The notes beneath the pieces are model-generated. The model was not told where the DNA came from and did not search any database. It worked only from the letters and a program-made list of their open reading frames with translations. A DNA stretch of 34,852 bases from Clostridiales bacterium (GTDB lineage: Bacteria > Bacillota > Clostridia > Caldicoprobacterales > UBA3941), in assembly GCA_012518395.1 (NCBI GenBank), contig JAAYSJ010000165.1, positions 1 to 34,852 of the forward strand, given 5' to 3'. Positions 15,710 to 34,852 of the stretch are shown here, one piece after another. A program made the translations under genes and the position numbers. Positions within the stretch are counted from its first letter, which is position 1, and the number at the start of each line of letters is the position of its first letter.

Positions 15710-16159
15710 TTGAGTCCATACCAGCGATTACTCCACAATAATATAATTTGGATAAGCCTCTTGGCATGGTTTATCGCCCAGGTTTTAAAAGTAATTTTTT
15801 CGTTAATTGTTAATAAAAAACTTGATATAAGAAGATTTATTGGCGCTGGGGGAATGCCCAGCTCCCACTCTGCCTTAGTAGTTTCCCTTGCGACTTCAAT
15901 AGGTAGGATTGAGGGGTATGATTCTTCACTATTTGCCTTAGCAGCTACCTTCTCTTTGATTGTTATGTATGACGCTGCTGGTGTCAGAAGAGCAGCGGGA
16001 AAGCAAGCTGCAGTATTAAACGAAATTGTGCAGCAGATCCAAGACCATAAAGGAGTCTCAGAAGAAAAGCTTAAAGAGCTACTAGGCCATACTCCTATAG
16101 AGGTCATAGCCGGTGCATTATTAGGTTTTGTTATATCCCGCTTATTTTTTGGTTTGTAA
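15710..16159 (+). CDS. Divergent PAP2 family (DUF212) membrane protein
   Basis: The 149-residue protein matches the DUF212/YuiD family, distantly related to PAP2 phosphatases. It has hydrophobic segments near residues 10-30, 45-60, 70-90 and at the C-terminus, and the family's MPSSHSALVVSL motif (about residues 47-58), whose SxxH resembles part of a PAP2 active site. AGGAGG at 15698-15703 precedes a TTG start at 15710, 8 bases after ispA. A lipid phosphatase role, perhaps on prenyl phosphates, is only inferred from the fold and from ispA next to it. The OLE RNA promoter begins inside its last codons. Confidence 0.85.
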   Translation: MSPYQRLLHNNIIWISLLAWFIAQVLKVIFSLIVNKKLDIRRFIGAGGMPSSHSALVVSLATSIGRIEGYDSSLFALAATFSLIVMYDAAGVRRAAGKQAAVLNEIVQQIQDHKGVSEEKLKELLGHTPIEVIAGALLGFVISRLFFGL

Positions 16160-16182
16160 CCTCACACTGATTATGTTATAAT
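16154..16182 (+). promoter_or_regulatory. Promoter of the OLE RNA
   Basis: TTGTAA (16154-16159) and TATAAT (16177-16182) are separated by exactly 17 bases. The predicted start near 16189-16190 coincides with the first base of the OLE closing helix. The -35 lies across the stop codon of the upstream DUF212 gene. This would allow OLE RNA to be made separately from the long upstream operon. Confidence 0.8.
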
Positions 16183-16189
16183 AATGAAT

Positions 16190-16760
16190 CTGGTGGCGCA
16201 GTATCCTAGTCAGCGTTGCCAATTTCGAAGGCGGGGCTAAAAATCCGTTAAGGGCATATCGATGAAGTTTCTGGTGCTGGCATCTAACGCCCAGTTGGGG
16301 GCTGGTGCTGGAAGTTAAGAAAGAAGGGCGATCCGCAATGGCATGCGGGCGTTGACCCAGCTTTCGTGGAGACCCAAGATGGTGGTCTTTTGGTCACTAC
16401 TTGGGAAGAACCTGTATTGCGGTTAAGAGCTGTGTGCAGTGTAGCCTGCCTTGAGTGAAACGGGCGAATTATGGATCAGGTTTCAGTTCATAGGGCCCAT
16501 GAACTGGGACTATTGCTATATGAAATCCCTTTTGCAAAAGAGGCTAGAAATTGGTTAGCGTTGCAGAGGAAAGCTCCTAGGCTGCTCGAATGAGGTGAAT
16601 TGGAGATTGCAGTGTGGTTATTAAGGCGATCCAGTTTTGTTGTTGGTGACACAGCAAGATTTTGTTTAAAAGGAAACTGCTTTTTCGGCGACGAAAAGTA
16701 CAAGATCGGGAAAACCTACTGGACCAAAGCCGCAAAGTTTATCCAATACACTGCCACCAG
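16190..16760 (+). ncRNA. ole: OLE (Ornate Large Extremophilic) RNA
   Basis: This stretch of about 571 bases has no credible coding frame, yet it is richer in G and structure than its AT-rich surroundings. CTGGTGGC (16190-16197) pairs perfectly with GCCACCAG (16753-16760), closing the whole domain. Internal helices include CCGCA/TGCGG (16333-16337 with 16344-16348), CCCAAG/CTTGGG (16373-16378 with 16400-16405), CAGTTCAT/ATGAACTG (16484-16491 with 16499-16506), TTGTTG/CAGCAA (16640-16645 with 16652-16657), and a GCGA tetraloop stem at 16681-16698. OLE RNAs are known to be roughly 600 bases, lie between ispA-type genes and dxs, and sit immediately upstream of oapA, exactly as here. The known ribonucleoprotein localises to the membrane and is linked to Mg2+, alcohol and cold responses. 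The identity rests on context, size and structure; a covariance-model search was not possible. Confidence 0.93.
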
Positions 16761-16811
16761 CCAATTATTTTTATCTTATTTTTAAAAACTATATCCCGGG
16801 AGGAATATATC

Positions 16812-17399
16812 TTGCCAAGCCCGGAAAATTATAAAAACAAAACGAAAAAAGGTAGACGAAAACATGGAATCTGGGCACTATATATGTTTTTAATTACTTT
16901 GTTTATTTCTTTTGCCCAAAGTATATTATTTCAAAAGGCTTTCTCTACCACGAATAATATTTTATTACCCCTTATTATAATATTGATTATAATATTAATT
17001 GGGGTTATTTTTGATATAATAGGAATAGCGGTAGCCTCTGCTCCTAAGACTCCTTTTGTATCCATGTCCTCAAAAAAGATCAGGGGTTCCAGACAAGCTC
17101 TAAATCTTATAAAAAGTGCCGATTTAGTTTCTAACTTTTGTAACGATGTGGTAGGAGATATCTGCGGAATAATCAGCGGCGCGGCTGGGAGTATGTTAGT
17201 TTTCAAGATAGTTTATTTAAAATTAAACCCTGATTTTTCATCTATCGTGATAAGCAGTATAATAGCAGCTATAACGGTAGGCGGTAAATCTATAGGTAAA
17301 AGTTTGGCTATAAATAAAAGCAAGGAGATAATCTATAGCGTAGGTTATTTATTATCCTTCTTTGATGTAAAAAATAAGAAATCAAGATCTAATAGTTAA
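16812..17399 (+). CDS. oapA: OLE-associated membrane protein OapA
   Basis: The 195-residue product matches OapA, the membrane partner required for OLE RNA membrane localisation. It has a basic N-terminus (to residue 18) and four likely membrane segments near 19-39, 50-76, 112-135 and 142-158. Between the second and third lies a cytosolic block with VASAPKTPF and the highly conserved-looking SNFCNDVVGDICGIISGAAG (about 107-126). The basic ends suit RNA binding. OapA is reported to resemble CNNM/CorC-type magnesium transporters, and the second segment plus the following block fit that. The start is a TTG at 16812 with GGGAGG at 16798-16803; the longer frame from 16662 runs into the RNA and is rejected. 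dxs follows 25 bases after the stop. Confidence 0.92.
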   Translation: MPSPENYKNKTKKGRRKHGIWALYMFLITLFISFAQSILFQKAFSTTNNILLPLIIILIIILIGVIFDIIGIAVASAPKTPFVSMSSKKIRGSRQALNLIKSADLVSNFCNDVVGDICGIISGAAGSMLVFKIVYLKLNPDFSSIVISSIIAAITVGGKSIGKSLAINKSKEIIYSVGYLLSFFDVKNKKSRSNS

Positions 17400-17424: not shown

Positions 17425-19347
17425 ATGCACTATTCACTACTTGATAGTATCTCTTCACCCCATGACCTTAAAGGTTTATCAATAGACCAGTTAGAGGAAC
17501 TATCCCATGAGATAAGGGATTTTATATTAACTACTGTATCTAAAACAGGCGGTCATTTGGCATCCAATTTAGGTGTGGTTGAATTGACTTTAGCCCTCCA
17601 TTACGTATTTGAAAGTCCCAAGGATATATTCATATGGGATGTGGGTCACCAGTCATATATTCACAAAATTTTAACTGGGCGCAAGGACAAATTTGGTTCT
17701 TTAAGACAACTTGGGGGATTAAGTGGTTTCCCAAAATATCAGGAAAGCCAGCACGATAAATTCAATACCGGCCATAGCAGTACATCCATATCCGCTGCTT
17801 TAGGAATGGCCAGAGCCAGGGATCTAAAGGCGGAAGATGGTTCCCACGTCATCGCCATCATAGGGGATGGGGCTCTAACTGGGGGTATGGCCTTTGAGGC
17901 ACTAAATGATGCAGGCCATTCCGATACTAATTTAATTGTTCTTTTAAACGACAACGAAATGTCGATTTCCCACAATGTCGGTGCATTAGCTGGGCATTTA
18001 TCCAGGGTTAGATCCAGTTCTAAATATAACTGGTTTAAAAAAGGTGTTCAGAATTTGTTTAGTAAGATGCCATGGATAGGGAACTCGCTGTCTACATGTG
18101 CAGATCTTGTTAAAAAAGGATTTAAGTCCCTTTTAGTTCACGGAATGATTTTTGAAGAAATGGGCTTTAAATATCTTGGTCCAATTGATGGACATAACCT
18201 TAGTGCTATGATGGATGTCCTAAAGCAAGCAGCAAAAATGGAGGGTCCAGTACTTGTTCATGCTATTACCCATAAAGGCAAAGGGTATGAGTATGCAGAA
18301 AATAATCCTGAGTTTTTTCATGGGGTCCCACCTTTTATTATGAAAACAGGAAAGACCCAAGAAAACAACTTTTCAACGTTTTCGGATGCATTTGGCGACC
18401 AATTAGTTCAGTTAGCCCGTGAAGACAATAGTATAGTAGCGATAACAGCGGCTATGCTGGAATCAACTGGTCTTTTAAAATTCCAAGAACTATTTCCCCA
18501 GCGTTTTTTTGATGTAGGTATTGCTGAACAACACGCTGTCACTATGGCGGCAGGATTAGCTGCTGCTGGGCTAAAACCCTATGTCGCCATCTATTCTACC
18601 TTTCTACAAAGAGCCTTCGATCAGATTCTTCATGATGTCTGTATCCAAAATCTGCCCGTACGACTAATTATAGATCGCGCTGGCTTAGTTGGTGAGGATG
18701 GGGAAACCCACCACGGTATATTTGATGTGAGTTTTTTAAATCCTATACCAAATATTTCAATACTTGCTCCTAAAGACACTGAAGAGTTAAGGGCAATGTT
18801 AGATTATACCAAAGAATTCAATAGCCCGATTGCTATCCGATATCCAAGGGGTAGAACAAGCCTTAGGTCACCGCTCCACAAAGATAAAAAGGAAGCTTTT
18901 GATCCTTTTACTTGGGATATACTAGCTGAGGGTAATCAATTATGCATTTTAGCCTTCGGTAAAATGCTGGAAGTGGCCTTTGAAACAGCTGATATTTTGC
19001 TTAAGCGTGGTATAAAAATTGGTATAATCAATGCAAGATCTATAAAACCTTTAGACAAATCCATGCTTGAGTATTTATCCAAAAGGTATAAGTATTGGGT
19101 TTCCCTAGAGGATAATATATTGGCTGGTGGATTTGGAAGCTCAATAAACCAATACTTAATTAAAAACAATTTGGGAACCTATATCCTAAATTTGGGGATT
19201 CATAATAGATTTGTTGGTCATGGCCAAGTGGAAGAGTTAATAAAGTTGGTATCCTTGGATCCCTCCAATGTAGCCCAAGAAATTAATTGTTTTTTAAATA
19301 ATTATAAGGAGAGCGATTATGTCCAATGCTTCCAAACAAAGGCTTGA
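17425..19347 (+). CDS. dxs: 1-deoxy-D-xylulose-5-phosphate synthase
   Basis: The 640-residue thiamine-diphosphate enzyme condenses pyruvate and glyceraldehyde 3-phosphate in the first step of the MEP isoprenoid pathway. It shows HLASNLGVVELTLALHYVF near residues 43-61, the cofactor-binding GDGALTGGMAFEALN, the VGIAEQHAVTMAAGLA block with the catalytic glutamate, the DRAGLVGEDGETHHG loop, and a transketolase-like C-terminal domain. Length is normal. Its last 29 bases overlap tlyA. dxs following oapA is the usual OLE locus order, and with ispA it brackets the RNA. Confidence 0.97.
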   Translation: MHYSLLDSISSPHDLKGLSIDQLEELSHEIRDFILTTVSKTGGHLASNLGVVELTLALHYVFESPKDIFIWDVGHQSYIHKILTGRKDKFGSLRQLGGLSGFPKYQESQHDKFNTGHSSTSISAALGMARARDLKAEDGSHVIAIIGDGALTGGMAFEALNDAGHSDTNLIVLLNDNEMSISHNVGALAGHLSRVRSSSKYNWFKKGVQNLFSKMPWIGNSLSTCADLVKKGFKSLLVHGMIFEEMGFKYLGPIDGHNLSAMMDVLKQAAKMEGPVLVHAITHKGKGYEYAENNPEFFHGVPPFIMKTGKTQENNFSTFSDAFGDQLVQLAREDNSIVAITAAMLESTGLLKFQELFPQRFFDVGIAEQHAVTMAAGLAAAGLKPYVAIYSTFLQRAFDQILHDVCIQNLPVRLIIDRAGLVGEDGETHHGIFDVSFLNPIPNISILAPKDTEELRAMLDYTKEFNSPIAIRYPRGRTSLRSPLHKDKKEAFDPFTWDILAEGNQLCILAFGKMLEVAFETADILLKRGIKIGIINARSIKPLDKSMLEYLSKRYKYWVSLEDNILAGGFGSSINQYLIKNNLGTYILNLGIHNRFVGHGQVEELIKLVSLDPSNVAQEINCFLNNYKESDYVQCFQTKA

Positions 19348-34141: not shown

Positions 34142-34215
<74 letters not shown>

Positions 34216-34225
34216 AAAGCACCAT

Positions 34226-34302
<77 letters not shown>

Positions 34303-34321
34303 TTAGTAATTTTGTTAGTTT

Positions 34322-34399
34322 GGTGGGTATAGCTCAGTTGGTTAGAGCGCCAGATTGTGGCTCTGGAAGTCGTGGGTTCAAATCCCGTTACCCACCCCA
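34322..34399 (+). tRNA. tRNA-His (GTG)
   Basis: The anticodon loop TTGTGGC between CCAGA and TCTGG gives GTG. The histidine-specific extra G at 34322 can pair with C at 34396, outside acceptor GTGGGTA/TACCCAC. CCA is encoded at 34397-34399. Confidence 0.96.
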
Positions 34400-34405
34400 T
34401 AGGAT

Positions 34406-34480
34406 TGGGGCGTAGCCAAGCGGTAAGGCACGGGACTTTGACTCCCGCAGTCGTAGGTTCGAATCCTGCCGCCCCAGCCA
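34406..34480 (+). tRNA. tRNA-Gln (TTG)
   Basis: Acceptor TGGGGCG (34406-34412) pairs with CGCCCCA (34470-34476). The loop CTTTGAC between CGGGA and TCCCG gives TTG. CCA is encoded at 34478-34480. Confidence 0.96.
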
Positions 34481-34576
34481 TATTAAAATGCTGTTGATCA
34501 ATATTTGTAATTCCTAGTATTAGGTTATGAAACTTGACCAGGATAGCTGATGATTATTGGGAAACAAATATTTTAC

Positions 34577-34661
34577 GCGGGCGTGGCGGAACTGGCAGAC
34601 GCGCTAGACTTAGGATCTAGTGCCTAATGGCATGGGGGTTCAAATCCCTTCGCCCGCACCA
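34577..34661 (+). tRNA. tRNA-Leu (TAG)
   Basis: Acceptor GCGGGCG (34577-34583) pairs with CGCCCGC (34651-34657). The loop CTTAGGA between CTAGA and TCTAG gives TAG. The long variable arm (TGCCTAATGGCA) is typical of class II tRNA-Leu. CCA is encoded. Confidence 0.96.
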
Positions 34662-34712
34662 TATACCTTAGTATTGATTTTTTTGAATTTTTATTTTTGG
34701 AATATCCTTTTT

Positions 34713-34787
34713 GCGGGAGTGGCTCAGTGGTAGAGCGTCGCCTTGCCAAGGCGAATGTCGCGGGTTCGAATCCCGTCTTCCGCTCCA
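34713..34787 (+). tRNA. tRNA-Gly (GCC)
   Basis: Acceptor GCGGGAG (34713-34719) pairs, with G-T wobble, with CTTCCGC (34777-34783). The loop TTGCCAA between TCGCC and GGCGA gives GCC. CCA is encoded at 34785-34787. Confidence 0.96.
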
Positions 34788-34791
34788 TATT

Positions 34792-34852
34792 GGCGCCCAT
34801 AGCTCAGCTGGATAGAGTTACAGACTTCGAATCTGGAGGTCGCAGGTTCGAA
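34792..34852 (+). tRNA. tRNA-Arg (TCG), truncated by window end
   Basis: Acceptor 5' strand GGCGCCC starts at 34792. The D arm, the anticodon stem ACAGA/TCTGG (four pairs) with loop CTTCGAA (anticodon TCG), and the start of the T arm GGTTCGAA are present. The 3' acceptor strand lies beyond the window. Confidence 0.9.

Follow-up and report, generated by a model that had tools for sequence, protein, structure and literature searches.

A complete OLE RNA is encoded at 16190-16760 on the forward strand of the window, which is the whole 34,852 nt stretch of DNA that was analyzed, and it almost certainly serves as scaffold for a ribonucleoprotein complex at the membrane. OLE is a large membrane-associated bacterial RNA already found in thousands of species; to our knowledge it ranks with the largest structured RNAs in bacteria for which no biochemical role is known. 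The window copy is a genuine, complete OLE RNA and an ordinary member of this well-known family, and it is probably functional. Its identity, the covariation of helices P1 and P3.1, the intact contact loops and the genes for four partner proteins are directly supported here; membrane localization, protein binding and a role in stress would extend to this organism by analogy with work in H. halodurans and clostridia.

The earlier note had named this stretch as OLE RNA, and a search with the Rfam OLE covariance model (RF01071) bore this out. A full-length match (model positions 1-616) was returned at 16177-16773 on the forward strand with a score of 497.4 bits (E = 3.5e-143), about ten times the gathering score of 50 bits, and RF01071 hit the 2.16 Mb draft genome nowhere else. 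The boundaries given in the earlier note, 16190 and 16760, coincide exactly with the outermost bases of the terminal helix CUGGUGGC/GCCACCAG. An alignment of 88 OLE RNAs was assembled from whole genomes and from named genomes found via OapA. In the other 87 RNAs, 155 columns reach a conservation of at least 95%, and the window RNA has the consensus letter at 153 of them. The internal hairpins described as strong were upheld, with 144 of the 153 Rfam consensus pairs in the window being standard pairs, and the GCGA tetraloop said to cap one hairpin was located at 16688-16691. The whole RNA folded at -204.4 kcal/mol (z = -3.99, 0 of 100 shuffles equally stable) and the opposite strand at z = -1.97. 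Coordinates of all features are given in Table 1.

Table 1. Features of the OLE locus in the window.
Feature	Position	Strand	Evidence or remarks
DUF212 / divergent PAP2 gene	15710..16159	+	PF02681, E = 3.3e-53
Predicted sigma-70-type promoter of ole	16154..16182	+	TTGTAA, 17 nt, TATAAT; TG before -10
OLE RNA, P1 to P1	16190..16760	+	571 nt; RF01071, 497.4 bits
P1 5' strand (CUGGUGGC)	16190..16197	+	pairs with 16753-16760; 7/8 pairs change on both sides (88 RNAs)
P3.1 5' strand	16219..16226	+	pairs with 16547-16554; 7/8 pairs change on both sides
P4 hairpin	16230..16249	+	A-rich loop GCUAAAAA at 16236-16243; matches consensus pairs
P4a/P5 hairpin	16268..16314	+	dimer-contact loop GCCCA 16289-16293
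P6 hairpin	16319..16365	+	dimer-contact loop AUGGCA 16338-16343
P7 hairpin	16373..16405	+	shortened relative to consensus
P8 hairpin	16412..16439	+	RF01071 match, consensus pairing
P9 long arm	16448..16544	+	tip with self-complementary GGGCCC 16493-16498, symmetric kissing loop
P3.1 3' strand	16547..16554	+	covariation
Domain 2	16594..16752	+	nested stems 16594-16604/16742-16752, 16613-16617/16730-16734, 16630-16635/16718-16723
Decayed internal loop UUAUUAA	16618..16624	+	replaces near-universal ACUAAGU of CUAAGUGG element; opposite strand 16726-16729
GUGA hairpin in domain 2	16637-16657	+	GUGA loop 16646-16649
GCGA hairpin in domain 2	16679-16699	+	tetraloop 16688-16691; on stem 16658-16665/16700-16707
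P1 3' strand (GCCACCAG)	16753..16760	+	covariation
oapA	16812..17399	+	195 aa, TTG start; homology
dxs	17425..19347	+	PF13292, E = 1.1e-122

The two ends of the RNA had been claimed to pair perfectly, and 8 perfect pairs were found there. The Rfam consensus line shows no pairing for the columns of this helix, P1, or of a second helix named P3.1 by its position. When both helices were scored together across the 88 RNAs, 84.6% of cells paired (67.3% in shuffles), 14 of the 16 pairs had two-sided changes, and 329 cells were two-sided compared to 129 in shuffles; sliding the partner strand by one to three columns lowered pairing from 85% to 36-55%. Since P1 and P3.1 are already named in a published model (PMC12265935), this covariation confirms them and is not a new discovery. 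That model places P1 in domain 2, which the end-to-end helix observed here fits, and P3.1 belongs to a stem that has been proposed to span the membrane (PMC12265935). Pairing of P3 beyond P3.1 (16213-16217/16557-16561) is not claimed, as the first pair alone is well supported.

The 571 nt length had been described as a little short and as a possible guide to dispensable parts. Lengths across the 88 aligned RNAs ranged from 544 to 657 nt (median 585.5), so that the window RNA is slightly short as claimed and unremarkable, with 12 of the 88 shorter still. The suggested use as a guide was discarded: the spread lies mostly in P7, where the region at 16371-16407 is 37 nt in the window and 18-118 nt (median 51) in relatives, and P7 is already known to be dispensable from OLE variants 1 and 2 (PMC11332333). 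What the window copy adds on dispensability is a decayed CUAAGUGG loop in domain 2, not its length.

Cryo-EM has shown that OLE dimers are held by the A-rich L4 loop, where the A-A contact lies in the P4 hairpin, by L5/L6 contacts and by a symmetric P9 kissing loop (PMC12286853). In the window each dimer-contact loop (GCUAAAAA, GCCCA, AUGGCA and GGGCCC) is intact, and the window RNA may dimerize as described in H. halodurans and clostridial work. The P5 loop GCCCA occurs in 84 of 88 OLE RNAs and the P6 loop as AUGGCA in 62 and as ANGGCA in all 88. At the P9 tip the 88 RNAs carry GGCC (75), AGCU (6), GUAC (3) or GAUC (2), with 2 unassigned. Palindromes GGCC, GAUC and AGCU were published previously (PMC12286853); GUAC is a fourth, found in L135, L140 and L141, diverged sequences in which the tip assignment rests on alignment. 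A loop that pairs with itself would be expected to exchange one self-complementary sequence for another, as GUAC would do, and GUAC supports the published P9 kissing loop. The P6 region of H. halodurans OLE is bound by bS21 and contains a perfect anti-Shine-Dalgarno mimic, CCUCC, whereas no perfect mimic was found in P6 of the window RNA. As a family-wide feature of P6 the mimic was ruled out, being present in 4 of 88 OLE RNAs.

The four published protein partners of OLE (OapA, OapB, OapC and bS21) are all encoded in the same draft genome. OapA of the window matched no family in Pfam or NCBIfam and was identified by homology; it is 64% identical to OapA of the nearest relative, with 18 invariant columns in alignment A1, and has the conserved stretch CNDVVGDICG, whose D112 and D116 correspond in spacing to D100 and D104 of H. 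halodurans OapA. The OapB gene adjoins infA, and the best PDB match of its product was "OLE-associated protein B" (E = 7.3e-9). OapC is a match to YbxF (E about 1e-13) encoded between rpoC and rpsL. The GCGA hairpin of domain 2 is likely the OapB site, as predicted by its position relative to published work (PMC9723947).

The gene context reported earlier (nusB-folD-xseA-xseB-ispA ... oapA-dxs) was confirmed by Pfam for the flanking genes, with nusB, folD, xseA, xseB, ispA and DUF212 upstream and dxs downstream, and by homology for oapA. The -35 box of the predicted ole promoter overlaps the DUF212 stop codon. The first positions of the RF01071 match fall inside its -10 box, and the RNA itself is therefore expected to start near 16188-16190. 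Promoter-like pairs scoring at least 9 of 12 were found in the 50 nt before P1 at 67 of 88 loci, compared to 18 of 509 control windows. At the far end of the window, a seven-tRNA gene cluster was observed at 34142-34852, its last tRNA cut by the contig end.

Among named genomes, 76 of 80 OapA loci had OLE sequence upstream by nhmmer, and at a 77th, L079 at a contig edge, OLE was recovered by Rfam. Two further OapA-bearing named genomes have OLE elsewhere in the genome; orphan oapA genes were ruled out for the genomes behind L119 and L144 on this ground. OLE was present in 28 and OapA in 29 of 61 sampled genomes, and all 28 with OLE have OapA. The additional OapA genome, G033 (L068, L069; 0.9 Mb), yielded no OLE by RF01071 at E ≤ 1 or by a conserved 17 nt pattern with one mismatch; a diverged OLE variant there is possible. 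A sub-threshold L20-leader match was noted after oapA in G033. Three OLE-oapA contigs (L072, L084 and L142) are filed under Actinomycetota and Methanosphaera MAGs and are probably mis-binned Bacillota contigs. Neither OLE nor oapA was found in three members of the window's own family (G001, G003 and G005) or in G014 (L159, L160, L161, L162), where the gene order ispA-DUF212-dxs-tlyA-nadK is preserved up to the contig limits and the DUF212-dxs gap is roughly 100-245 bp. These clean junctions without either gene indicate that ole-oapA is gained or lost as one unit, and the paired absence in close relatives shows the two behaving as a single module.

The CNNM family includes the MpfA Mg2+ transporters, which have no RNA part, unlike the OLE complex. 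Strong CNNM matches were found in 15 of 28 OLE-bearing genomes and in 30 of 33 others (Fisher p = 0.0013, an optimistic value given the relatedness of the 61 genomes and the incompleteness of some), and the window genome has none. Many OapA proteins of relatives weakly match Pfam CNNM (E about 1e-4 to 1e-7). The lower frequency of strong CNNM matches alongside OLE agrees in direction with a previous report in which MpfA/CNNM was proposed as a functional substitute for the OLE complex (PMC11332333).

The only two departures of the window RNA from the 155 conserved columns sit in the internal loop at 16618-16624 of domain 2, where the CUAAGUGG element is replaced. Of the 88 OLE RNAs in the alignment, 81 have this element, either as CUNAGUGG or in a close (single-base) variant, and seven have lost it (the window, L016, L010, L014, L017, L018 and L140). 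It is missing from all seven sampled OLE-bearing members of f1, the family containing the window, and f3, a related family; six of these were aligned and the seventh is a fragmentary OLE copy in G004. Members of f2 and f4 that could be aligned retain it, and a separate loss was seen in one Christensenella. The f1/f3 replacement loops are A/U-rich, 6-7 nt long and unlike each other in both sequence and length, a pattern suggestive of relaxed constraint rather than of a new motif. A column scan for a coupled partner did not reveal another site with a clear loss in this set of RNAs. That the decay arose once is plausible but weakly supported, the f1+f3 grouping being present in the OLE tree with a support of only 0.39. 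A full-text literature search for the CUAAGUGG motif with OLE RNA found no mention of loop loss. The chances are evenly balanced that the f1/f3 OLE RNAs are an unreported variant with a decayed CUAAGUGG loop, in which, as seen in the window, domain 1, the dimer contacts and the partner genes are kept.

Compared to OLE of H. halodurans, C. acetobutylicum and C. botulinum (RF01071), the window RNA shares P1, P3.1, P4-P9, the domain-2 stems and the contact loops, and with known OLE loci it shares the adjacent downstream oapA, the isoprenoid/DNA-repair gene neighborhood and the OapB, OapC and bS21 genes; it differs in its shortened P7, in UUAUUAA replacing CUAAGUGG and in a P6 without the perfect anti-SD mimic. 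OLE variants 1 (TANB77 clade) and 2 (RF39 clade) likewise depart from the full-length consensus, with P7-P9 reduced in length or P7 and P8 missing, and the P13 OapB site often lost (PMC11332333). The window RNA was not assigned to either variant: it has retained P8, P9, the GCGA hairpin and a shortened P7, and its change lies in a domain-2 loop.

Three other explanations of the stretch were weighed. The most probable of them, though still improbable, is that the window holds a degenerating copy in a family that is losing ole-oapA, and that this copy is losing its domain-2 function. The three same-family genomes with neither gene and a clean DUF212-dxs junction would fit such a history, as would the decayed CUAAGUGG loop of the window itself; against this, oapA is intact, the most conserved columns and consensus pairs hold (153/155 and 144/153), and scores of 505-529 bits are reached by the other OLE RNAs that have lost this loop.

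It is more doubtful still that the RNA serves mainly as a cis-acting leader controlling oapA and dxs expression and not as a free noncoding RNA. The oapA start lies 51 nt after P1 with no terminator found in between, so that the RNA and oapA are probably co-transcribed. However, both OLE RNA and oapA are present in G061 and G062 (L151, L152) and are not adjacent, so OLE need not be the leader of oapA, and in H. halodurans OLE exists as an abundant RNA of its own and functions together with OapA in a ribonucleoprotein (PMC9723947). Finally, that the stretch encodes a short protein, with its structure incidental, has a negligible probability and is refuted by covariation. The earlier claim that no credible coding frame is present was sustained, in that frames inside the stretch reach at most about 75 codons from stop to stop; ORFs of 71 aa (- strand) and 61 aa (+ strand) do exist, but they overlap conserved stems, and the 497-bit family match, the strong base-pair covariation and a z of -4 on the forward strand all point to RNA.

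The window RNA is thus best read as the scaffold of a membrane-bound stress-response ribonucleoprotein, as OLE has been described (PMC9723947, PMC12265935, PMC12054373). Its transcription would begin at a dedicated promoter where the DUF212 gene ends, with operon read-through probably also contributing. P1 would close the RNA, and the A-rich loop of P4, the loops of P5 and P6 and the GGGCCC loop of P9 would pair domain 1 with another OLE RNA. OapA would keep the dimer at the membrane, while OapC would bind the kink turn, bS21 would bind P6 and OapB would bind the domain-2 hairpin. The assembled complex may then aid adaptation to Mg2+, cold, alcohol and poor carbon sources.

We know of no high-resolution structure of OLE domain 2. 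With its CUAAGUGG element missing, domain 2 here may not perform everything that it does in H. halodurans; most likely, the CUAAGUGG contact has been lost or has become unnecessary in this clade and the remainder has been kept. If the f1/f3 RNAs are indeed such a variant, the CUAAGUGG element would be a contact with something that has been lost or replaced in these bacteria, and this contact would be separable from dimerization and OapA binding. A clade that keeps all but one near-invariant domain-2 loop is a natural experiment on that loop.
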